Below, piece after piece: positions 4,985 through 55,440 of a stretch of 64,000 nt of DNA. The DNA comes from Acetobacteraceae bacterium (lineage in GTDB: Bacteria; Pseudomonadota; Alphaproteobacteria; Acetobacterales; Acetobacteraceae), in assembly GCA_024280945.1 (NCBI GenBank), contig JAMXLO010000122.1, forward strand, positions 1 to 64,000, in the 5' to 3' direction. Each line of letters begins with the position of its first letter. The stretch's first letter is position 1. The position numbers were made by a program, and so were the translations under genes. The notes under the pieces were generated by a model. The model had not been told where the DNA came from. It searched no databases and saw nothing but the letters and a program-made list of their open reading frames with translations.

Positions 4985-5287
4985 TCATCGCGCCGCACGC
5001 GATGGCGTCGGCAAGGTTCTTCTGCCTGGGACACTATTGCCGAGGTACATCGGCCACCTGTCGGTCACCGCCTCCAGGTCGATGTCTCCCCACTTCGGAT
5101 GGGTGCCTCGGGTTTCGCGTATGTCACCGACCACGTTCGCAAGCTTGTCGTGAATCAGCTCGAGCTGATCATGCTTGCTCTTCGACGCGAAGTTGCGCGT
5201 CACGAGCACCGCCCTGACAGCGAGCGACTGCACACCCTCCTGACCGAGGTTCCTGCAGGTCAGCGTCGTCCGGTCATAAGCCGGCGC
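4985..5287 (-). pseudogene. C-terminal remnant of a TAXI-type TRAP solute-binding protein
   Basis: About 100 codons on the minus strand read like the end of a TAXI-family periplasmic binding protein. A YDRT segment leads into SLAVRAVLVTR, then a helix-rich tail with HDKL, TRGTHP and YLGN. Upstream, the frame runs into the start of the plus-strand peptide-binding gene and no longer resembles the family; no start or signal peptide can be placed. I read it as a 3' fragment left after deletion. The assignment is by recognition of this motif order only and is moderate at best. Confidence 0.4.
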
Positions 5288-5409: not shown

Positions 5410-6978
5410 ATGCGACGCACGCTTCTCTTGTTGTCCAGCTTCCTTGCCCTGAGCACCGCGGCCTCGGCCGCCGAGCTACGCCTGGGACTGGCGGTCGAGC
5501 CGGATTCGATCGATCCGCACTACCACAACTTTGGTGGCAACAAGGGGCTGATGCCCAATGTGTTCGATGCCCTGACATCGATCGATCCGCAGGATCACCT
5601 GATCCCGGACCTCGCACTGTCCTGGCAGTTGACCGACAGCACGACATGGGAATTCAGGCTGCGCGAAGGCGTCACCTTTTCCGATGGTACGCCGCTGACC
5701 GCCGATGATGTCGCCTTCACCATCGACCGCGTGCCGACTGTGCCGACCACCGTCACCGATATGTCCGAATATGTGAAGCAGATCGCGCGGATCGAAGTGA
5801 TGGACCCGCACACCGTGCGGTTCCAAACCAAGGGACCGTTCCCGCTCGCCCCCGAATACCTGTCCGCCATCGGCATCGTGTCGCGTGCGCACGGCGCAAG
5901 CGCCAGCACGGCCGATTACAACAGCGGCAAGGCGGCGATCGGCACCGGGCCTTTCCACTTCGTGAGCTGGGCCCGCGGTGATCGGATCACACTGACGCGC
6001 AATGAAAAATGGTGGGGAGGAACGCCGGCATGGGACAACGTCACCATCCGCTACATCAGGAACCCCGCCTCGCGCCTTGCTGCGCTGCTCGCAGGCGATG
6101 TGCAGCTGATCGATCAGGTGTCGGTGCAGGATATTGCGCGCGTCAAGGACGATGCGCGCTTCACCCTTGCGTCCGGTCTGTCCGACGACATCGTCGGCTT
6201 TGTGTTCGACGTGCAGGAACGCTCTTCGCCAAAGATCAGTGGTAATGATGGCGCACCGCTGCCGGTAAATCCGTTCCGCGACCGCCGCGTGCGCGAGGCA
6301 GTGAACCTGGCGATCGACCGCATCGCCATTCGCGATCGGATCATGAATGGCCAGTCCGATCCCGACAATCAGTACATGAAGCCGGGCCAGTATGGTTACG
6401 ATCGCGACCTGTCGCCATTGCACTTCGATCCGCAGCGCGCGCGGCAATTGCTGGGCGAGGCCGGGTATCCGGACGGCTTCCGCCTGACCGTGTCGTGTCA
6501 GAACGACCGCTTCGTCAACGATGCGGCGATCTGCCAGACGCTCGCGCAGATGCTGACGCGTATCGGCATCGCAGCCACGCCGGAGGTAATGCCGCACGCG
6601 GTGTGGGTGCCGCGTGCCAACCGGCACGAATTCAGCCTGTTCACCTACTTCTGGACCATCGATACGCCCGAGCCGTCGATCATGCTGATCAGCCAGCTCG
6701 CCACGCCGGATGCCGGGCGCGGGCGTGGCGCATTCAACCGCGGCGTCTATAGTAACCCGGCGTTCGATGCGGCATTGGATCAGGCGCTGGTGACGCTCGA
6801 CCGCGAGGCGCGCGAGGCGCTGCTGATCAAGGCCACCGACATCGCCTTCCGCGATTGCGCGCTGACGCCATTGCACCACCAGTTCAACATCGAGGCGATG
6901 ACGCGTAGCATTCGCCACGCACCCAGGATCGACGGCCATCTGCGTGCCGTCGAAGTCCAGCCGAAGAAGGGAGAATGA
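5410..6978 (+). CDS. Peptide-type ABC transporter substrate-binding protein (family 5)
   Basis: A 522-residue periplasmic binding protein of the DppA/OppA (SBP_bac_5) family, which delivers peptides, nickel chelates, opines or glutathione to an ABC importer. A Sec signal peptide (MRRTLLLLSS to ASA) precedes the mature AELRLGL. The family core follows: EPDSIDPHYHN, DLALSW, and FRLREGVTFSDGTPLTADDV. ATG 5410 is chosen because it begins the signal peptide; 5398 is possible. No permease or ATPase gene is nearby, so it is an orphan that must borrow membrane components. Its stop meets the gamma-glutamyltransferase-like gene, so gamma-glutamyl peptides or glutathione are plausible ligands (inference). 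Confidence 0.85.
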   Translation: MRRTLLLLSSFLALSTAASAAELRLGLAVEPDSIDPHYHNFGGNKGLMPNVFDALTSIDPQDHLIPDLALSWQLTDSTTWEFRLREGVTFSDGTPLTADDVAFTIDRVPTVPTTVTDMSEYVKQIARIEVMDPHTVRFQTKGPFPLAPEYLSAIGIVSRAHGASASTADYNSGKAAIGTGPFHFVSWARGDRITLTRNEKWWGGTPAWDNVTIRYIRNPASRLAALLAGDVQLIDQVSVQDIARVKDDARFTLASGLSDDIVGFVFDVQERSSPKISGNDGAPLPVNPFRDRRVREAVNLAIDRIAIRDRIMNGQSDPDNQYMKPGQYGYDRDLSPLHFDPQRARQLLGEAGYPDGFRLTVSCQNDRFVNDAAICQTLAQMLTRIGIAATPEVMPHAVWVPRANRHEFSLFTYFWTIDTPEPSIMLISQLATPDAGRGRGAFNRGVYSNPAFDAALDQALVTLDREAREALLIKATDIAFRDCALTPLHHQFNIEAMTRSIRHAPRIDGHLRAVEVQPKKGE

Positions 6979-6980
6979 CG

Positions 6981-8723
6981 ATGGCCGACCAGCACCGCAT
7001 GCCGACGCATCATCCGCGCATCATCGGCACGCGGCACATGGTGTCGTCGGCCAACTACCTGGCAGCCGAGACGGGTTTCGCAATTCTCGAAGCGGGCGGC
7101 AATGCGATCGATGCCGGCGTCGCCGGTGGCATCGCGCTCGGTGTGCTGCAGTGCGAATACGTGCACTTCGCCGGCGTCGCGCCGATCATGATCCGCCTCG
7201 CGGAGACCGGCGAGACGGTATCGATCAGTGGCCTTGGACCCTGGCCGAACTTGGCCAGCGCCGCGTGGTTCCGCGAGCAGCAAGGCGGTCGTATCCTGTC
7301 CAACGTCAAGCGCTGCGTGGTGCCCGCGGCACCGGATGCCTGGATCACCGCGCTGGAACGCTATGGCACTATGAGCTTCGGCGACGTCGCCAACGCGGCG
7401 ATCCGCTTTGGTCGCGAAGGCTTCGGCTTCCAGTCGATCTCACACGAAGTGATGACGGAAGCGGTCGACACCATCCGCCGCTATCCACAGAACGCCGCGA
7501 TCTATCTGCCGAACGGTCAGGTGCCGAAGCCCGGAACCCGCTTCTTCCAAAGCGATCTTGCCAACTCGATCCAGTATATGGCGGACCAGGAGGCCGCTGC
7601 CGCACGCAAGGGCGGACGTGCGGCGGGATTGGCTGCCGCACGCGATGCGTTCTATCGCGGCGATATCGCGCAGAAGATCGTCGCCTATCATAAGGCGAAC
7701 GACGGATGGCTGCGGGAAGACGACCTGGCTGAGTTCCGCTCGGATGTCGAGACGCCGCTCTCTGTGCGATATGGCGATGTGACGGTGTTCGGTTGTCGCC
7801 CCTGGTGCCAGGGACCAGTGCTGCTGCAGACGCTGAAGATCCTCGACGGTATCGATTTACAGGCGCTGGGCCATAACTCGCCCGCTTATGTCCATACACT
7901 GATAGAGGCGCTGAAGCTCGCCTTCGCCGATCGCCACGTCTATTACGGCGACCCGAAGTTTGTCGATGTGCCGATCGATGCGTTGCTGAGTGACGCGTAC
8001 GCGGCGAGGCGGCGCACGCTGATCGACCCGCTCAGGGCGTGTCCGGAAATGCCGCAAGCCGGCACAGCAGAAGAACTCGGCCTTGCGGCCCGTGCTGCAC
8101 CCGCTGTCAAAGCGGATCGCGAATATGTCGAGGGCGATCCCGACACCTCTTACGTCTGCGCCATCGATCGGGAGGGAAATTGCTTCTCGGCCACGCCAAG
8201 CGATGGCGCGATCAACGGCCCGGTGATTCCTGGCACGGGTCTCGCACCTTCGTCGCGCGGCATGCAGTCATGGACCGATCCGGCGCACCCGGCCTGCCTG
8301 GCACCGGGGAAGCGACCGCGCCTCACGCCAAATCCGTCGATTGCCATGCGTGACGGCAAGTGGATCATGCCGTTCGGTTCACCGGGCAATGACGTGCAAC
8401 CGCAGGCGATGCTGCAGGTCTTCCTCAACATGGTGGTGTTCGACATGACGCCGCAGCGGGCGATCGAGCAACCGCGCTTTGCCTCATCCAGTTTTCCCTC
8501 CTCGTCCGACCCGCACAGCTACACGCCGGGCCGCATGAGTATGGAGCGGCGCTTCAGCGATGCGACGGCAGCGGCGCTCGATCAGATGGGACACAGCGTC
8601 AACTGGTGGCGGGAGTGGGAATGGAAGGCTGGCTGCGTCTGCGCTGTCGTGCATGACCGTGAAAGCGGCCTGTTGGAGGGCGGTGCCGATATACGCCGTC
8701 CAGGCGGCGTGCGCGGGTGGTGA
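6981..8723 (+). CDS. Gamma-glutamyltransferase family protein (Ntn hydrolase)
   Basis: About 580 residues covering both halves of a gamma-glutamyltransferase-like Ntn hydrolase. Such enzymes self-cleave and use the exposed threonine to transfer or hydrolyse gamma-glutamyl or related acyl groups. The cleavage site is at DPD-TSYVCAID (Thr near residue 390), followed by GNCFSATPSDG and the glycine-rich FGSPGND loop. EAGGNAIDA near the N-terminus is a family signature. No signal peptide is seen, unlike periplasmic E. coli Ggt, so it may be cytoplasmic. ATG 6975 overlaps the previous stop, but AAGGGAG is better spaced for ATG 6981. It is co-transcribed with the binding protein upstream and cdh downstream. 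Confidence 0.85.
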   Translation: MADQHRMPTHHPRIIGTRHMVSSANYLAAETGFAILEAGGNAIDAGVAGGIALGVLQCEYVHFAGVAPIMIRLAETGETVSISGLGPWPNLASAAWFREQQGGRILSNVKRCVVPAAPDAWITALERYGTMSFGDVANAAIRFGREGFGFQSISHEVMTEAVDTIRRYPQNAAIYLPNGQVPKPGTRFFQSDLANSIQYMADQEAAAARKGGRAAGLAAARDAFYRGDIAQKIVAYHKANDGWLREDDLAEFRSDVETPLSVRYGDVTVFGCRPWCQGPVLLQTLKILDGIDLQALGHNSPAYVHTLIEALKLAFADRHVYYGDPKFVDVPIDALLSDAYAARRRTLIDPLRACPEMPQAGTAEELGLAARAAPAVKADREYVEGDPDTSYVCAIDREGNCFSATPSDGAINGPVIPGTGLAPSSRGMQSWTDPAHPACLAPGKRPRLTPNPSIAMRDGKWIMPFGSPGNDVQPQAMLQVFLNMVVFDMTPQRAIEQPRFASSSFPSSSDPHSYTPGRMSMERRFSDATAAALDQMGHSVNWWREWEWKAGCVCAVVHDRESGLLEGGADIRRPGGVRGW

Positions 8724-9421
8724 AGCCGGCGGCCGGCGTCGCGCTGCTTGTCTTGCTCGCGGCGCCGTGCAGCGCCGCCGACCCGAATGCGTTGTGGCAG
8801 ATCGTCGGCGGTCAATGCGTGCCGGATGAGCAGCAGCACCACTCGCCGGAGCCGTGCGCCGCGGTCGATCTCGCTGGCGGCTACGCGGTGCTGAAGGACA
8901 TTGTCGGCGACACGCAGTTTCTGCTCATTCCGACCACGCGTGTCACCGGGATCGAGAGTCCGGAGATCCTGGCCCCCGGTGCACCGAACTACTTTGCAGC
9001 CGCCTGGCGAGCACGGCGTTTTGTTGACGAGCGGGCACATCAGGAGCTGCCGCGCGAGGACCTAAGCCTGGTGATCAACGCGAAAGATCGACGCTCACAG
9101 AACCAATTGCACATTCACGTGGACTGCATGCGCCTGGATGTAGCAGCTGCGTTGCGCGAGCACGCAAGCGCCATCAGCACTCACTGGGCACCATTCCCGG
9201 TAAGCCTCGTCGGGCACGACTACATGGCGATGCGCATCGATCAGCCGGACCTGACGCAGGCCAATCCGTTCCTGCTGCTCGCCGATGGCATCCCTGGCGC
9301 GCGGGAGGACATGGGAAGCTACACGCTGGCGGTTGTCGGACAACCCCACGGCTTCGTGCTGCTCGCCGGTCATGGCTGGGGCGAGGCTTTGCAGGACCAT
9401 TCCTGCGCCGCGGCGCACTGA
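8717..9421 (+). CDS. cdh: CDP-diacylglycerol pyrophosphatase
   Basis: A 234-residue CDP-diacylglycerol diphosphatase (Cdh family), which hydrolyses CDP-diacylglycerol to CMP and phosphatidate at the membrane. The N-terminal MVKPAAGVALLVLLAAPCSA is a signal or anchor sequence. The HIT-like catalytic signature is visible as NQLHIHVDC near residue 130, with VLKDIVGDTQFLLIPT upstream as in the family. The start is GTG (8717 or 8720), overlapping the end of the gamma-glutamyltransferase gene, so translation is probably coupled. Length matches known Cdh proteins. A phospholipid nucleotide enzyme in this operon is unexpected; see findings. Confidence 0.8.
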   Translation: MVKPAAGVALLVLLAAPCSAADPNALWQIVGGQCVPDEQQHHSPEPCAAVDLAGGYAVLKDIVGDTQFLLIPTTRVTGIESPEILAPGAPNYFAAAWRARRFVDERAHQELPREDLSLVINAKDRRSQNQLHIHVDCMRLDVAAALREHASAISTHWAPFPVSLVGHDYMAMRIDQPDLTQANPFLLLADGIPGAREDMGSYTLAVVGQPHGFVLLAGHGWGEALQDHSCAAAH

Positions 9422-50295: not shown

Positions 50296-51483
50296 ATGCG
50301 TACAACGACACGCCGTTCGGTGTTGGCCGGTGCCACCGGTCTGTTGGCCTCACCCTCGATCCTGGGCCGTGCCGCCGCCGCCACCCGTGGCGTATCGGAT
50401 ACCGAGATCGTCATCGGCATGATGACCGACCTCTCCGGCGTCACCGCGGTGCAGGGCAGCAACGCCGCCAAGTCGATCCGTATGGCATTCGACGACGTCA
50501 ACGAGAAAGGCGGCATCAACGGGCGAAAGGTCCGCTTCATCGTCGAGGACATGGAGTATCTGGTCCCCAAGGCCGTGCAGGCGATGAACAAGCTGGTCAA
50601 TCGCGACAACATCTTCCTCTCGTTTGCCAGCGGTGGCACACCGCAGATGGACGCCGTGCTGCCGATGATGCTCGAGAAAGGTGTGCCAAGCGTATTCCCG
50701 CTGACCTGCGCGCGATCGATGTACGAGCCGTTCAACAAGTACAAGTACGGCCAGTTCTCGTCGTACTACGACCAGATGCGCGCCTGCGTGAAATACTTCG
50801 CGGAGACGAAGGGCAAGAAGGTCATCGGGTCAATGTATCAGGACACCGATTTCGGCCGGGACGTCCACGCAGGGGTCGTCGCGCAGGTGGAAGCGATGAA
50901 GCTGAAGCTTGGCGCCACATCGGCGTCGCGTCCGACCGATACCGACTTCAACGCGCAGGTTACCCGGCTCAAAGAGGCCGGCTGCGATCTGGTCTGCATG
51001 GGCACCATCGTAAAGGACACGGTCATCATTCTGCAGACCGCGCACAAGATGGGTTGGGACCCTGACTTCTGCGGTCAGTTCGCCACCTACTCGACTGCGG
51101 TGGCCGAGGCGCCGGGCGAGCCGGCCGAAGGCTTCTATTCGATGTCGCCGGGATTGTATGCCTATTCTGACGATCCGCGCCCGGCGGTGCGCGATGTCGG
51201 CAGTCGCTTCAAGCAGCGGTTCGGCATCGAGATAAACTATCTCGGCGAGGCGGGCTATGCAGGGGCCATGTGCCTGATAGACGCGCTGCAACGTGCCGGG
51301 CGCGATCTGAACCTGGACACGTTCCAGCGGGCCATGGAGAGCACCAAGGAGTGGCGCGACATCTTCGGCGGCCCACCGCTGACGATCACGCCGACCGACC
51401 ACCATGCCTCCACCCAGTCCTTCCTTTCGGTTGTGAAGAAGGCTCGGTGGACGCCGGTCGTGTCGGAGCCGTTGGGGTACTGA
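50296..51483 (+). CDS. Branched-chain amino acid-type ABC substrate-binding protein
   Basis: A 395-residue periplasmic type I binding protein of the LivK/urea/aromatic-compound group (Peripla_BP_6). The signal peptide carries a twin-arginine motif (TTRRSVLAGATGLL), suggesting Tat export. The mature part begins VSDTEIVIGMMTDLSGV and continues with NEKGGINGRKVRFIVED and SGGTPQMDAVLP, which holds the ligand site. No permease or ATPase genes follow, so it is an orphan. The molybdenum hydroxylase gene lies 162 bp downstream in the same direction, so the ligand may be that enzyme's substrate, for example an aromatic or N-heterocyclic acid (inference). Confidence 0.85.
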   Translation: MRTTTRRSVLAGATGLLASPSILGRAAAATRGVSDTEIVIGMMTDLSGVTAVQGSNAAKSIRMAFDDVNEKGGINGRKVRFIVEDMEYLVPKAVQAMNKLVNRDNIFLSFASGGTPQMDAVLPMMLEKGVPSVFPLTCARSMYEPFNKYKYGQFSSYYDQMRACVKYFAETKGKKVIGSMYQDTDFGRDVHAGVVAQVEAMKLKLGATSASRPTDTDFNAQVTRLKEAGCDLVCMGTIVKDTVIILQTAHKMGWDPDFCGQFATYSTAVAEAPGEPAEGFYSMSPGLYAYSDDPRPAVRDVGSRFKQRFGIEINYLGEAGYAGAMCLIDALQRAGRDLNLDTFQRAMESTKEWRDIFGGPPLTITPTDHHASTQSFLSVVKKARWTPVVSEPLGY

Positions 51484-51645: not shown

Positions 51646-53931
51646 GTGAACGACACAGTCGTGACCGATTCGGTAAAGCGCTTCAAATGGGTTGGAACCA
51701 GGCCGATCCGTCCGGATGGCGTTCCCAAGGTGACAGGCAAGGCACTGTACGGCGGCGACTACAAGGTCCCCGGCATGCTGTACGGCAAGATCCTGCGGTC
51801 GCCGCACGCGCATGCGCGCATCCGCTCAATCGATACCTCGGCTGCCGAGAAGCTGCCTGGCGTCAAGGCCGTGGTCACCTCGAAGGACCTGCCAGAACAG
51901 AAGTTCGACTACATCGGCCCCGAGCGTGTTGCGCAAAACTTCTGGCACATCACTCGCAACATCATGGCACGCGAGAAGGCTTTGTACGAGGGGCACGCGA
52001 TTGCCGCCGTTGCCGCGATCAGCACGTCGATCGCCGAAGAGGCGGCCGCCCTGATCAAAGTGGACTACGAAGTGCTGCCGCATGTCATCGACGTTGACGA
52101 GGCGATGGCCGACGGCGCGCCGTTGCTGTTCGAGGATATGATCACCCGCGGCATCGAGCCGGCACCGACCAAACCCTCCAACATCTCGAAGCGGCTCGAA
52201 TTCAAACTCGGCGATGTCGATGCCGGCTTCAAGCAGGCCGACGTGGTGATCGAGAAGGAGTTCAAGACAGCGGCGGTGCATCAGGCGTACATCGAACCGC
52301 ACGCCTGCGTCGCGCGCTGCGACGCCGATGGACAGACCGAGATCTGGTCCTCGTCGCAGGGCCACTTCCAGATGCGCGCACTGACGGCGGCGATCCTGAA
52401 GAAACCGGTCGGCGACATCCGCGTGTATCCGGCGGAAATCGGCGGCGGCTTCGGCGGGAAGACGATAACATATCTGGAACCAGTCGCACTGCTGCTGTCG
52501 ATGAAGTCGGGCAGCCCGGTACGACTCATGATGACCCGCGAGGATGTGTTCCGCGCCACCGGTCCCACCTCGGGTTCGTCGATGTGGGTGAAGATCGGCG
52601 TCACCAAGGACGGCAAGATCGTTGCCGCCGACGGTATATTCAAATTCCAGTCCGGCGCCTTTCCCGGCTCGCCGGTGATGAACGGATGCCTGTGCGCCTT
52701 CGCGCCGTACGAGATCCCGAACCAGCGTTCGGTCGGCTACGACGTGGTAAGCAACCGACCGAAGGCAGCGGCCTATCGTGCGCCTGGCTCGCCGATCTCC
52801 GCCTTCGCGGTGGAAAGCGTGCTGGACATGTGCGCCGGGGAAATCGGCATGGACCCGCTGGAACTGCGGCACAAGAATGCCTGCCGGATCGGCACGCCCA
52901 CGATCCAGGGGCCAAAGCACGCACACGACGGCTACATTCAGACCGTCGAGGCGCTGATTAATCATCCGGCCTATAAGGTGAAGCTGGGACCGAACCAGGG
53001 ACGCGGCGTCGCCTCTGGCTACTGGTTCAACGGTGGCGGCGAGTCGAGCGCGACGGTCCAGGTGAACACCGATGGCACGGTGCTGGTGGCGACCGGCAGC
53101 CCCGACATCGGTGGCTCGCGCGCTTCCATGGCTCTGATGGCCGCCGAAACCCTGGGTGTGGACTACAGCCAGGTGCGTGCCATCGTCGCCGACACCGGCT
53201 CGATTGGCTACACCCACGTCACCGGCGGTTCGCGCGTCACCTTCGCGTCCGGCATGGCAGTGGTGAATGCCACCAAGTCAGTGATCAAGGACCTGTGCAG
53301 GCGCGCCGCCGTGATCTGGGACGTCGACCCCGAAGGGGTGATCTGGGAGGACGGCTTCGCCAAGCCGGCAGGCTCCAACGTCGGGGACTTCGAGCCGTTG
53401 TCGCTGAAGGCGCTGGCGGCGAAGGCGTCGGCCACCGGCGGTCCGATCACCGCGGCGGCGAGCGTCAATGCCGGCGGCCAGGCACCGGGCTTCTCGACCC
53501 AGTTCTGCGACGTGGAAGTGGACCCGGAGACCGGCAAGGTCACCATCCTGCGCTTCGTCGCCGCGCAGGACGTCGGCAAGGCGATTCACCCGAGCTACGT
53601 CGAGGGGCAGATCCAGGGCGGCGTGGTGCAGGGCATCGGTTGGGCGCTGAACGAGGAGTACATCTACAACGACAAGGGCCAGCTCGATAATCCGGGCTTC
53701 CTCGACTACCGCTGCCCGGTGGCATCCGACCTGCCGATGATCGACGCGGTCCTGGTCGAGGTGCCGAACCCGGCGCATCCCTATGGCGCCAAGGGCGTGG
53801 GCGAGGTGAACATCTGCCCGCCAATGGCCGCGATCGCCAATGCGATTGCCGCCGCAACGGGCGTGCGGATGACCGAGTTGCCGATGTCGCCACCCAAGGT
53901 GCTGGAGGCCATAGACGCCGCGAGTGCCTGA
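51646..53931 (+). CDS. Xanthine dehydrogenase-family molybdopterin-binding subunit
   Basis: A 761-residue large subunit of a molybdenum hydroxylase (CoxL/XdhB family), inserting oxygen from water into aldehydes or N-heterocycles. The start (VPKVTGKALYGGDYKVPGML) and RSPHAHARI are typical. GGGFGGKT (about 265-272) and AAYRAPG (about 374) contact the cofactor. GAKGVGEVN near residue 715 carries the catalytic glutamate. The start is GTG 51646 with GAGG upstream. Neither the FAD subunit nor the 2Fe-2S subunit is nearby, which is unusual. A MoaD-like gene follows after only 3 bp, so the two are surely co-expressed. Confidence 0.9.
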   Translation: MNDTVVTDSVKRFKWVGTRPIRPDGVPKVTGKALYGGDYKVPGMLYGKILRSPHAHARIRSIDTSAAEKLPGVKAVVTSKDLPEQKFDYIGPERVAQNFWHITRNIMAREKALYEGHAIAAVAAISTSIAEEAAALIKVDYEVLPHVIDVDEAMADGAPLLFEDMITRGIEPAPTKPSNISKRLEFKLGDVDAGFKQADVVIEKEFKTAAVHQAYIEPHACVARCDADGQTEIWSSSQGHFQMRALTAAILKKPVGDIRVYPAEIGGGFGGKTITYLEPVALLLSMKSGSPVRLMMTREDVFRATGPTSGSSMWVKIGVTKDGKIVAADGIFKFQSGAFPGSPVMNGCLCAFAPYEIPNQRSVGYDVVSNRPKAAAYRAPGSPISAFAVESVLDMCAGEIGMDPLELRHKNACRIGTPTIQGPKHAHDGYIQTVEALINHPAYKVKLGPNQGRGVASGYWFNGGGESSATVQVNTDGTVLVATGSPDIGGSRASMALMAAETLGVDYSQVRAIVADTGSIGYTHVTGGSRVTFASGMAVVNATKSVIKDLCRRAAVIWDVDPEGVIWEDGFAKPAGSNVGDFEPLSLKALAAKASATGGPITAAASVNAGGQAPGFSTQFCDVEVDPETGKVTILRFVAAQDVGKAIHPSYVEGQIQGGVVQGIGWALNEEYIYNDKGQLDNPGFLDYRCPVASDLPMIDAVLVEVPNPAHPYGAKGVGEVNICPPMAAIANAIAAATGVRMTELPMSPPKVLEAIDAASA

Positions 53932-53934
53932 TCG

Positions 53935-54195
53935 ATGAGCGAAGCGCCCGCGCGCGTCGTGTTCACCACCGGCTTCTCACGCCGCTACACCGGCGGCGTG
54001 ACGGAGTTTGCCGTGGCGGCCAAGACCTTGCGTGGGGTCATTCGCGAGATGGACAAGCAGTTTCCCGGTCTGGCGGAGACGCTGGCAGAGGAAACCACGG
54101 TCGCGATCGATGGCGAATTGTACGAAATCGACTTCCTCCGCCCCATCAAGCCTGGGGCGGAGGTGTTCTTCATTCCGAGAATCGAAGGCGGGTGA
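53935..54195 (+). CDS. MoaD/ThiS-family sulfur carrier-like protein
   Basis: An 86-residue beta-grasp protein: an N-terminal strand VVFTTGFSRRYTGG, a LRGVIREMDKQFPGL helix, and DFLRPIKPGAEVFFIPRIEGG at the C-terminus. The di-glycine end is the hallmark of MoaD/ThiS/Urm1-type carriers, which are adenylated and thiocarboxylated there. It probably serves molybdopterin synthesis or cofactor sulfuration for the hydroxylase immediately upstream. No MoaE or MoeB-like gene is adjacent. The Arg before EGG is not unusual. Confidence 0.82.
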   Translation: MSEAPARVVFTTGFSRRYTGGVTEFAVAAKTLRGVIREMDKQFPGLAETLAEETTVAIDGELYEIDFLRPIKPGAEVFFIPRIEGG

Positions 54196-54513: not shown

Positions 54514-55440
54514 ATGAAAATAGCCGTTATCGGAACCGGCGGTGTCGGCGGGTCCTTCGGAGCCGCACTGGCAAAGGCCGGCGCGGACGTGGCGTTTGTG
54601 GCCCGCGGCGCGCACTTGGCGGCTATGCAGGAGAATGGCCTGCGGGTTGAAGGCGGCCGAGGCGAGACGGTAATCCGCCCAGTCCAGGCGACCGACAATA
54701 TCGCCAGCATCGGGTCGGTCGATATCGTCCTGTTCTGCGTGAAGTTGTGGGATGTGAAGCCAGTGGGTGCGCAACTCGGCCCATTGCTTGCACAGGACAC
54801 GGCAGTCATTCCGCTCCAAAACGGGGTCGATGCGGCGCGTTGGCTGGTCGAGATTCTTGGGGCCACTGCGGTGATGAACGGAACGGTCGCTGTCAGCGCG
54901 ACCATCGATCGTCCAGGGGTGATCCGTCAGACGGGCAAGATGATGTCGTTGACGTTTGGCGAAATGGACGGGCGCATGACGCGGCGCGCGGAGCAATTCC
55001 ACGCGCTTTGCGACAGGGCCGACTTCGACGTGACGCTCAGCGACAATATTGCGGTTCCGCTGTGGGTGAAATTTATGGCTCTGACCGCCATGAGCGGTTG
55101 CACTGCGCTCTCTCGACTGCCGATCGGCAAACTGCGTGATGATCCGGAGATCTTTGCCTGGTTTGAAAGCGTGATGCGGGAAACCGAAGCGGTCGGCCGC
55201 GCCGAAGGTGTCGCGCTGCCTGCGGATACTGTGGACAAGCTGATCGGACTCACCAGGTCGCTGCCGCCCGAAGCGAGAGCTTCGATGGCGGTCGATCTGT
55301 CCCGCGGCAATCGCCTGGAACTTCCCTGGCTCGCCGGCAAGGTCGTCGAGCTAGGCCGGAAGCATGGCATTCCGACGCCGTCGAACTGGGGCATTTATGT
55401 CGCGCTCAAGCCCTACGCCAACGGCGCGCCACCACCCTAG
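54514..55440 (+). CDS. panE: Ketopantoate reductase (2-dehydropantoate 2-reductase) family protein
   Basis: A 308-residue NADPH-dependent reductase of the ApbA/PanE family, which reduces 2-dehydropantoate to pantoate for coenzyme A synthesis. The Rossmann motif GTGGVGG sits at residues 8-14. VDIVLFCVKLWD with a catalytic Lys region, and IPLQNGVDA follow. Helices of the C-terminal domain contain the ALTAMSGCTALSR segment. Several paralogues are usual in such genomes, so this copy may reduce another 2-oxo acid. An ATG with GGGGGTGAG upstream starts it. Its stop overlaps the convergent ligase gene by 4 bp. Confidence 0.82.
   Translation: MKIAVIGTGGVGGSFGAALAKAGADVAFVARGAHLAAMQENGLRVEGGRGETVIRPVQATDNIASIGSVDIVLFCVKLWDVKPVGAQLGPLLAQDTAVIPLQNGVDAARWLVEILGATAVMNGTVAVSATIDRPGVIRQTGKMMSLTFGEMDGRMTRRAEQFHALCDRADFDVTLSDNIAVPLWVKFMALTAMSGCTALSRLPIGKLRDDPEIFAWFESVMRETEAVGRAEGVALPADTVDKLIGLTRSLPPEARASMAVDLSRGNRLELPWLAGKVVELGRKHGIPTPSNWGIYVALKPYANGAPPP

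Follow-up and report, generated by a model that had tools for sequence, protein, structure and literature searches.

A molybdenum hydroxylase large subunit and a ThiS/MoaD/CysO-like beta-grasp protein encoded as a conserved gene pair in Alphaproteobacteria

The locus and its two genes

The window, i.e., the whole stretch of 64,000 nucleotides analysed here, lies on contig C122 (221,922 bases) of an Acetobacteraceae genome, and contains the large subunit gene of a molybdenum hydroxylase (L) followed by the gene of a small beta-grasp protein (S; Table 1). We confirmed both genes of the original prediction, a large subunit and a small GG-ending protein 3 bp downstream: the junction reads GCC TGA TCG ATG, so L and S, with a 3-nt gap between them, share one reading frame. 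The window has no match to any Rfam family at the gathering threshold.

Table 1. Genes of the L-S locus and its immediate neighbours (positions in the window).
Gene	Position	Strand	Basis and remarks
Periplasmic binding protein (Peripla_BP_6)	50296..51483	+	Pfam; neighbour only
L: molybdenum hydroxylase (xanthine oxidase family) molybdopterin-binding large subunit	51646..53931	+	Pfam domains; 761 aa, GTG start
S: ThiS/MoaD/CysO-like beta-grasp protein	53935..54195	+	86 aa, ATG start, C-terminus ...FIPRIEGG
Ketopantoate reductase-like (ApbA) gene	54514..55440	+	Pfam; neighbour only

Three Pfam domains were found in L, all above cut-off (Ald_Xan_dh_C, 110 bits; MoCoBD_1, 224.8 bits; MoCoBD_2, 221.1 bits). 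GGFGGK (residues 267-272) and the glutamate E720 of a C-terminal GVGE motif are invariant across 36 aligned sequences; we take the first to be the loop near the molybdenum and the second to be the catalytic glutamate. By these domains and molybdenum-site motifs, L is assigned to the large subunits of the xanthine oxidase (XO) family, for which there are 20 loci in the window's genome. The solved sequence closest to L is 4-hydroxybenzoyl-CoA reductase alpha (1rm6), and the matches listed for the predicted fold of L are XO-family enzymes (Z 33-40). Matches to 13 NCBIfam enzyme models were obtained with L, each scoring short of its curated cut-off, for example those of 4-hydroxybenzoyl-CoA reductase alpha (TIGR03194, 481.4 bits, cut-off 994.55), xanthine dehydrogenase XdhA (NF043082, 457 bits, cut-off 780; NF007426, 434.7 bits, cut-off 916), and aerobic CO dehydrogenase (TIGR02416, 289.7 bits, cut-off 991.15). 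L, like S, is under purifying selection. No signal peptide was seen in L by eye.

The S of the window falls just under the gathering cut-off of Pfam ThiS (PF02597; 20.7 bits, cut-off 22.5), while its paralogue on contig C137 (33.5 bits) and three further relatives (25.1-37.1 bits) exceed it; a ThiS match at E≤0.01 was found in 61 of the 62 aligned members (the fold alignment covers 62 of 86 rows). In comparisons with eight orthologues, S has a dN much lower than its dS, and its predicted model (pLDDT 90.8) has a beta-grasp fold with CysO, MoaD, SAMP1, and Urm1 as neighbours (TM 0.77-0.81 to CysO, 3dwg and 4n6e; 0.64-0.73 to MoaD, 1fm0). The ThiS matches, the low dN, and the predicted fold together indicate that S is a real family and not a chance open reading frame. 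S contains no cysteine and has a free C-terminal GG (IEGG-stop in the window), which is exact in 79 of 86 S proteins; the other seven tails are three GAG, one DGS, and one each of GGC, GGK, and GGNTER. CysO, MoaD, and SAMP1 act through their C-terminal glycine, and the predicted beta-grasp fold and free GG of S are those of the CysO/MoaD/ThiS sulfur carriers. S differs from CysO and MoaD in being only 14-26% identical to them in fold alignments and far below the cut-off of the MoaD equivalog TIGR01682 (18.7 bits against 66.15), and from all three carriers in being tied to a hydroxylase gene.

Pairing of L and S across genomes

The proposed two-gene pair is conserved in other genomes: L lies directly 5' of S, within 300 bp on the same strand, at 75 of the 80 S loci fetched, and of the remaining five, four are at contig ends and one is a weak 32-bit match. 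(L103-L105, duplicates of L015, L016, and L018, are excluded from the tail, tree, and orphan counts; the adjacency count of 80 includes the former and excludes the latter. S matches in G223, G451, G448, and G240:C87 were left out of the main set; the one in G448 adjoins an L, L217.) The pair spans Alphaproteobacteria, including Sinorhizobium meliloti 1021, whose pSymA (NC_003037) encodes a complete four-gene operon: an S match at 1151646-1151843 is adjoined there by L and by the genes of the 2Fe-2S and FAD subunits. Outside this class, 398 Pseudomonadota genomes gave 18 S matches, all weak (26-33 bits), and none of the 13 fetched adjoined L; the three that we opened lie, by eye, between threonine synthase-like and cysteine synthase-like genes, as CysO might. 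Judged by its gene neighbourhood, S is restricted to this hydroxylase subfamily and is not a stray MoaD. We found no account of the L-S association in the open-licence PMC literature, where "ThiS" also matches the word "this".

The reverse association is weaker. Searching the family sample with L as query gave 51 close matches, which by hand count comprise 28 with S (including those of G051 and G078, where L and S were linked over a contig break), 20 lacking it (one, L200, has just 270 bases downstream), and 3 partial. The 100 L loci examined below were sampled mostly through searches with S as query, and loci with S are therefore over-represented among them. In addition, one clade of 14 L loci lacks S entirely, and genes for the 2Fe-2S (FeS) and FAD subunits are present at 13 of the 14, indicating that S is not required by every enzyme of L's kind. 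XdhC was considered as a stand-in for S in this clade and, isolated cases aside, rejected, since it is not among the 25 neighbour families listed of 48 (42 of 100 ORFs scanned); no Pfam family has more than three members there. At least six changes for S and at least seven for FeS are needed on the tree, a quick LG+G4 tree with long outgroup branches on which gain and loss of S at the base are ambiguous. For these counts, two states were set to unknown: S at L187 (tallied as S-less in the loci table and tree), whose contig ends beside L while an S, L116, opens a different contig from that genome, and FeS at L018, which has 468 bases upstream of L.

The divergence of L and S is correlated across 79 loci (r=0.84, whereas 999 permutations peak at 0.105). 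Within the 61 complete operons the correlation with L is 0.81 for S, 0.78 for FAD, and 0.69 for FeS; S thus diverges with L at least as closely as FAD or FeS do. Co-inherited genes correlate regardless, so r by itself is no proof of contact between L and S. Such co-divergence, as strong as that of a co-inherited subunit, would also suit a structural or regulatory subunit that binds L and handles no sulfur, its GG tail being a relic; a precedent is TmoB, a beta-grasp subunit of a hydroxylase whose role is described as unclear (PMC1779556; PMC1949818). The seven tails without exact GG would suit this role as well. It is disfavoured by the exact free GG retained in 79 of 86 proteins despite wide divergence, and by best fold matches to the glycine-using CysO, MoaD, and SAMP1; we regard it as possible, if somewhat unlikely.

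Little else is shared around the pair. We scanned 131 of the 151 nearest ORFs of L-S loci against Pfam and obtained 158 families; among the 25 listed, none has more than five members, and reading the substrate from gene context was abandoned given this diversity. MoeB, XdhC, and desulfurase are absent from the 25 listed of these 158 families. Neither the ApbA gene nor the Peripla_BP_6 gene of the window occurs in any neighbour cluster seen at three or more loci, and only two of nine close loci have a match to the latter, a distant one that shares 22% identity and lies roughly 5 kb downstream of S. The suggestion that the upstream binding protein supplies the substrate is therefore not upheld; by its distribution, this gene is without link to the L-S pair.

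The same scan bears on two further roles of S. S could be a private MoaD that feeds sulfur into molybdopterin synthesis for L's enzyme, as proposed in PMC1779556 for the MoaD genes that adjoin tungsten aldehyde ferredoxin oxidoreductases (AORs), and the predicted fold does match MoaD. This is a poor prospect, given the score of S against the MoaD equivalog, the absence of MoaE from the neighbour families listed (25 of 158), and a MoaE elsewhere in the window's genome with its own adjoining ThiS-family gene; together with a second ThiS-family gene on C28, the latter implies that S is not the sole carrier of its kind. S could also act as a ubiquitin-like modifier whose attachment to L or another protein controls stability or assembly, in keeping with the predicted similarity to SAMP1 and Urm1 and with the GGC, GGK, and GGNTER tails, which run past GG and would need trimming. 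Since E2, E3, and JAB-type genes are all missing from the same 25 families, and the genome has a single ThiF match above cut-off, we find this role very improbable.

Electron-transfer subunits of the orphan large subunit

A profile search of the whole genome (E≤0.001) returned 11 Fer2_2 and 8 FAD_binding_5 matches, none of them on contig C122, so only the molybdopterin subunit is present at the locus, as originally noted. Missing FeS and FAD neighbours are not rare among the large-subunit loci of this genome: 9 of the 20 have no Fer2_2 on their own contig (one, on C113, is at a contig end). The subunits do exist elsewhere, in a complete paralogous FAD-FeS-L-S operon on C137. Complete operons of this kind were found at 61 of the 100 L loci (a sample largely S-queried), with 2Fe-2S and FAD genes alongside L at 16 more; 17 of the 100 have S and no local FeS/FAD, on at least three branches, and this orphan state is nested among complete operons on the tree. 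Placed in this way, L+S is best read as a derived branch of the four-gene FAD-FeS-L-S operon of Alphaproteobacteria rather than as a minimal hydroxylase. The earlier idea of a simplified hydroxylase, as stated, is not supported on these three grounds (the 61 operons, that on C137, and the nesting). The conserved pair in it stands, and relatives have the subunits that complete an ordinary complex, which may or may not serve the L of the window.

FeS subunits of the C137 type (≥74% identity) occur in 9 of the 12 orphan-clade genomes, the exceptions being G051 (73% complete), G113 (88%), and G482 (98%); other, more distant FeS subunits occur in all 12. In the family sample, a complete S-type operon is present in 8 of the 10 genomes of the orphan clade, compared with 11 of the remaining 110 (Fisher p 3e-6, by a test that ignores relatedness and genome size). 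We also considered, and rejected, the idea that the surface of orphan L that meets FeS has decayed: taken as a whole, the orphan clade departs from FeS-linked L at two of the 155 columns nearly invariant in the latter (residues 382 and 619), which is weak evidence because it pools columns irrespective of contact with the FeS subunit. At the same columns, four other clades differ at 0 to 2, the S-less clade at 6, the L-only pair L183/L185 at 5, and L184, which lies inside the orphan clade with FeS and FAD and without S, at 7. The conserved columns, the C137-type FeS subunits, and the co-occurrence of complete operons support supply in trans, and the electron-transfer subunits of orphan L would most likely come by that path.

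Orphan L-S might instead be a self-sufficient, simplified hydroxylase whose electrons go directly to a different acceptor with no FeS/FAD subunit; the 17 loci with S and no local FeS/FAD, on at least three branches, agree with this, as does G482, which at 98% completeness encodes the pair but lacks a close FeS subunit. We consider this unlikely in view of the few changed columns, the FeS subunits in genomes of the clade (close ones in 9 of 12, more distant ones in all), and the lack of a cysteine in S for a cluster. It concerns the electron path, and is combinable with any role of S.

A possible role of S and comparison with known systems

We propose that L and S are what has been retained here of a four-gene unit (FAD, 2Fe-2S, L, and S). 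The single MoeB/ThiF-type enzyme of the genome would adenylate the C-terminal glycine of S; S would be charged as a thiocarboxylate and dock on apo-L, where it would assist in building or sulfurating the molybdenum centre. Orphan L would use FeS and FAD subunits made elsewhere, usually from the complete paralogous operon. The adjacency, co-divergence, GG tails, and carrier-like fold neighbours support this scheme as a whole (a retained pair, S as a sulfur-carrier-type maturation partner, and FeS/FAD in trans), which we put forward tentatively, as having a little less than an even chance of being right. The more specific form, in which a dedicated ubiquitin-family carrier delivers sulfur to the molybdenum by thiocarboxylate, each L having its cognate S and orphan pairs sharing subunits, is speculative, with perhaps one chance in a handful or slightly better. 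Folding L and S as one chain, with the intervening TGA read as Gly, gave a model with no usable interface (pLDDT of the S part about 60-75 per block); in structural comparison its alignments were essentially confined to L, some rows extending to residue 801 at most.

XO-family hydroxylases are numerous, as the 20 loci in the window's genome alone illustrate, and a carrier-like protein tied to one subfamily is a concrete, testable claim on the maturation of their molybdenum centre. In Rhodobacter capsulatus xanthine dehydrogenase, XdhC and a cysteine desulfurase provide the equatorial Mo=S ligand; if the more specific form above is true, S would belong to a second bacterial route to this ligand, and orphan L-S pairs sharing distant electron-transfer subunits would be mix-and-match hydroxylases. 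These results also suggest that an "orphan" large subunit is not necessarily either a broken or a self-sufficient one.

Similar to L, 4-hydroxybenzoyl-CoA reductase alpha (1rm6_D; 34% identity, Z 35.6 to the predicted fold) and other XO large subunits have the same domain content, GGFGGK, and C-terminal glutamate; L differs from them in having S as partner and no local FeS/FAD genes. AORs are an enzyme family different from the XO family. In the clusters described by Iyer et al. 2006, a MoaD-like gene strictly adjoins the molybdo- or tungsto-enzyme, as S adjoins L, but MoeB is often included, and it is not among the L-S neighbours listed; "xanthine" occurs 0 times in the main text of that paper (PMC1779556). 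TmoB of toluene monooxygenase, as outlined in the relevant passages, is likewise a beta-grasp protein encoded with a hydroxylase (PMC1779556; PMC1949818), although its enzyme, unlike L, is no molybdenum hydroxylase. The xdhC gene, according to sections of PMC2997495, lies directly 3' of the molybdopterin subunit gene, like S, and is needed for an active molybdenum centre; installation of the Mo=S ligand had, in that account, been worked out for one XdhC as of 2010. XdhC has a Rossmann domain (PMC2997495), whereas S has a predicted beta-grasp fold, and the one XdhC_CoxI match in the window's genome is on a different contig from the pair.

The large subunit and its genomic setting

Table. Coordinates of the features discussed (locus handles mark positions within the fetched locus)
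Feature	Coordinates	Strand	Remarks
Peripla_BP_6 protein	50296-51483		upstream neighbour of L
L, molybdopterin-binding subunit	51646-53931	+	761 aa; three Pfam domains of xanthine oxidase (XO) family large subunits
S, small protein	53935-54195	+	86 aa; open reading frame 3′ of L; C-terminal end RIEGG
L030, large subunit	5951-8278		contig C6 of the same genome
L037, ThiS-family protein	5056-5262		32 bits; contig C122, near 181.1 kb
L236, split L match	6680-8940		Sinorhizobium meliloti strain ABS7

The molybdopterin-binding subunit (L) matched 13 NCBIfam models, in each case below the cut-off, so we placed it as a member of the XO family and named no substrate. Its GGFGGK motif (267-272) and the glutamate of its GVGE motif (E720) are invariant among 36 aligned sequences, and we take both to be part of the Mo site.

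That L is an orphan, with no FAD or 2Fe-2S (FeS) genes alongside, was borne out locally: in a search of the whole genome (6.42 Mb in 156 contigs, 99% complete), no match to Fer2_2 or FAD_binding_5, the Pfam families of these partners, was found on the window's contig. The genome contains 20 large-subunit loci, 11 Fer2_2 matches, and 8 FAD_binding_5 matches; nine of the 20 loci lack any Fer2_2 match on the same contig (the one on C113 lies at a contig end). Being an orphan is thus nothing special here in itself; it is common among the XO-family large subunits of this genome. The eight besides L (L025-L032) are located on contigs C134, C32, C28, C141 (two), C6, C103, and C113. The one on C6 (L030) is 69% identical to the large subunit of contig C137, and no FeS, FAD, or S gene was found beside it; it belongs to the same subfamily and is likewise an orphan, here lacking the small partner as well. 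The FAD and FeS subunits that the original prediction had suggested seeking elsewhere in the genome were found on C137, in a full FAD-FeS-L-S operon (L024) whose S and L are 39% and 62% identical to the window copies. The Peripla_BP_6 protein, earlier proposed as the substrate supplier, was not found conserved beside L-S in relatives, and we do not count it in the system.

The small protein and its pairing with L

With 20.7 bits, S narrowly misses the Pfam ThiS cut-off of 22.5, which its C137 paralogue and three other relatives tested pass, and 61 of the 62 aligned S members match ThiS at E<=0.01. Its predicted fold (pLDDT 90.8) best matches CysO (TM 0.77-0.81), with MoaD, SAMP1, and Urm1 also among the matches listed, and a profile search of solved structures returned a MoaD-related protein, CysO, a BexX-bound carrier, and human MoaD. 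That S is a private MoaD is a less likely reading: it scores 18.7 on the MoaD equivalog model, well below the cut-off of 66.15. Elsewhere in the genome, C58 carries a MoaE gene with a ThiS-family gene beside it, and C28 carries one more gene of the ThiS family, making S an additional member of this kind. A further ThiS-family protein (L037) adjoins a 357-aa gene on the window's contig, far from the hydroxylase. Of 86 S proteins, 79 end in an exact free GG; among the others, three end in GAG, one in DGS, and three have residues beyond GG. Conjugation of S as a modifier is likewise a less likely alternative.

Genomes with S number 22 of 120 in the family, 52 of 385 in the class, and 35 of 398 in the phylum; the 18 phylum-level matches outside the class are all weak, and no L was found beside the 13 of these S-like matches that were fetched. 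Three of the weak matches (L219, L221, and L229) are flanked by threonine synthase-like and cysteine synthase-like genes, judged by eye, perhaps a CysO-like sulfur-carrier operon. Among 80 fetched S loci, 75 have L on the same strand, no more than 300 bp upstream; the exceptions are four loci cut by contig ends (L116, L119, L127, and L173) and one weak match (L131). A family search with L as query, counted by hand, gave 28 of 51 loci with S, 20 without, and three partial matches. Conservation of the pair, which the original prediction had suggested examining, thus holds in one direction: S is nearly always with L, but L is often without S. After 20 loci found with L as query were added to the S-derived set, 100 L loci were long enough for use, a sample weighted towards S: 61 have FAD, FeS, and S; 17 have S only; one has FeS and S; 16 have FAD and FeS without S (including L187, which lies at a contig end and probably has S); and five have none.

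Several individual loci are unusual. A second large subunit (L137) or a second FeS and FAD set (L150) immediately follows S, possibly as double hydroxylase operons. The symbiotic plasmid pSymA of the laboratory strain S. meliloti 1021 carries a complete FAD-FeS-L-S unit (L235); in strain ABS7 the L match is split over two open frames, and the gene may be interrupted. Two L proteins 87% identical to the window copy (L019 and L020) come from metagenome bins whose titles, Nitrosovibrio and Asaia, look doubtful.

Across 79 loci, pairwise distances of L and S are correlated (r=0.84; the highest value among 999 permutations was 0.105). Since co-inheritance alone yields some correlation, FAD and FeS are fair yardsticks: in 61 complete operons, S correlates with L at 0.81, FAD at 0.78, and FeS at 0.69. 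When eight orthologous loci are compared with the window, L has a dN of 0.095-0.141 and S one of 0.172-0.245, at dS values of 0.68-1.74, indicating that both genes are maintained; genes beyond the unit are diverse across loci. This is the pattern expected of a dedicated subunit or of a maturation partner.

Origin of the orphan arrangement and electron supply

A quick tree of L (100 rows, with long outgroup branches) separates an S-less clade of 14 rows (13 with FeS and FAD; L191 with neither) from 86 rows, 79 of them with S; at the base, S may have been either gained or lost. The window L falls within a 17-row clade (SH-aLRT 100). Fourteen of its loci have L and S only (one, L018, with too little upstream sequence for judging), and two, L183 and L185, have L only. 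Also inside this clade, L184 has the reverse of the window's arrangement, with FAD and FeS present and S absent. FAD and FeS are also missing elsewhere on the tree, at L128/L130 and L156; at minimum, six changes are needed for S and seven for FeS.

The orphan clade as a whole differs at only two of 155 columns nearly invariant in FeS-linked relatives; read from the alignment, this offers no hint that the FeS interface has been lost. A C137-type FeS, at 74-100% identity, occurs in 9 of the 12 orphan-clade genomes (G020 and G111 having L only). None was found in the other three, G051 (73% complete), G113 (88%), and G482 (98%), which hold other FeS subunits at 39-51% identity. In the 120-genome family sample, a full S-type operon is present in 8 of 10 orphan-clade genomes versus 11 of 110 others (p 3e-6, ignoring relatedness and genome size, and generously counting G078, G002, and G103, whose operons are cut by contig ends). 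We prefer the reading that FeS and FAD would be supplied to the orphan L in trans, to which G482 is a real counterexample.

Proposed role of S and known systems

We infer that S is a carrier-type protein that would serve maturation of its own L, akin to XdhC and NifS4 for XDH; a single ThiF match over the cut-off and a single XdhC_CoxI match were found in the genome. The main rival is a plainly structural role, as with TmoB (PMC1949818, PMC1779556).

Parts of the unit are already annotated routinely: plasmid annotations call the S gene "MoaD/ThiS family protein", adjoining "xanthine dehydrogenase family" subunits. No account of the L-S association was found in the open-licence PMC literature searched. 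Iyer et al. (2006; PMC1779556) catalogued a MoaD gene adjoining a tungsten AOR, in a paper whose main text does not contain the word "xanthine"; here, the MoaD-like gene lies beside an XO-family L. In Rhodobacter capsulatus XDH, the cofactor is described as sulfurated and inserted by XdhC with the desulfurase NifS4 (PMC2997495), and the job of S may be related. Among known proteins, CysO is closest to S in predicted fold, and MoaD is among the fold matches, with S well below the MoaD equivalog cut-off; L is closest by sequence, among solved structures, to 4-hydroxybenzoyl-CoA reductase alpha.
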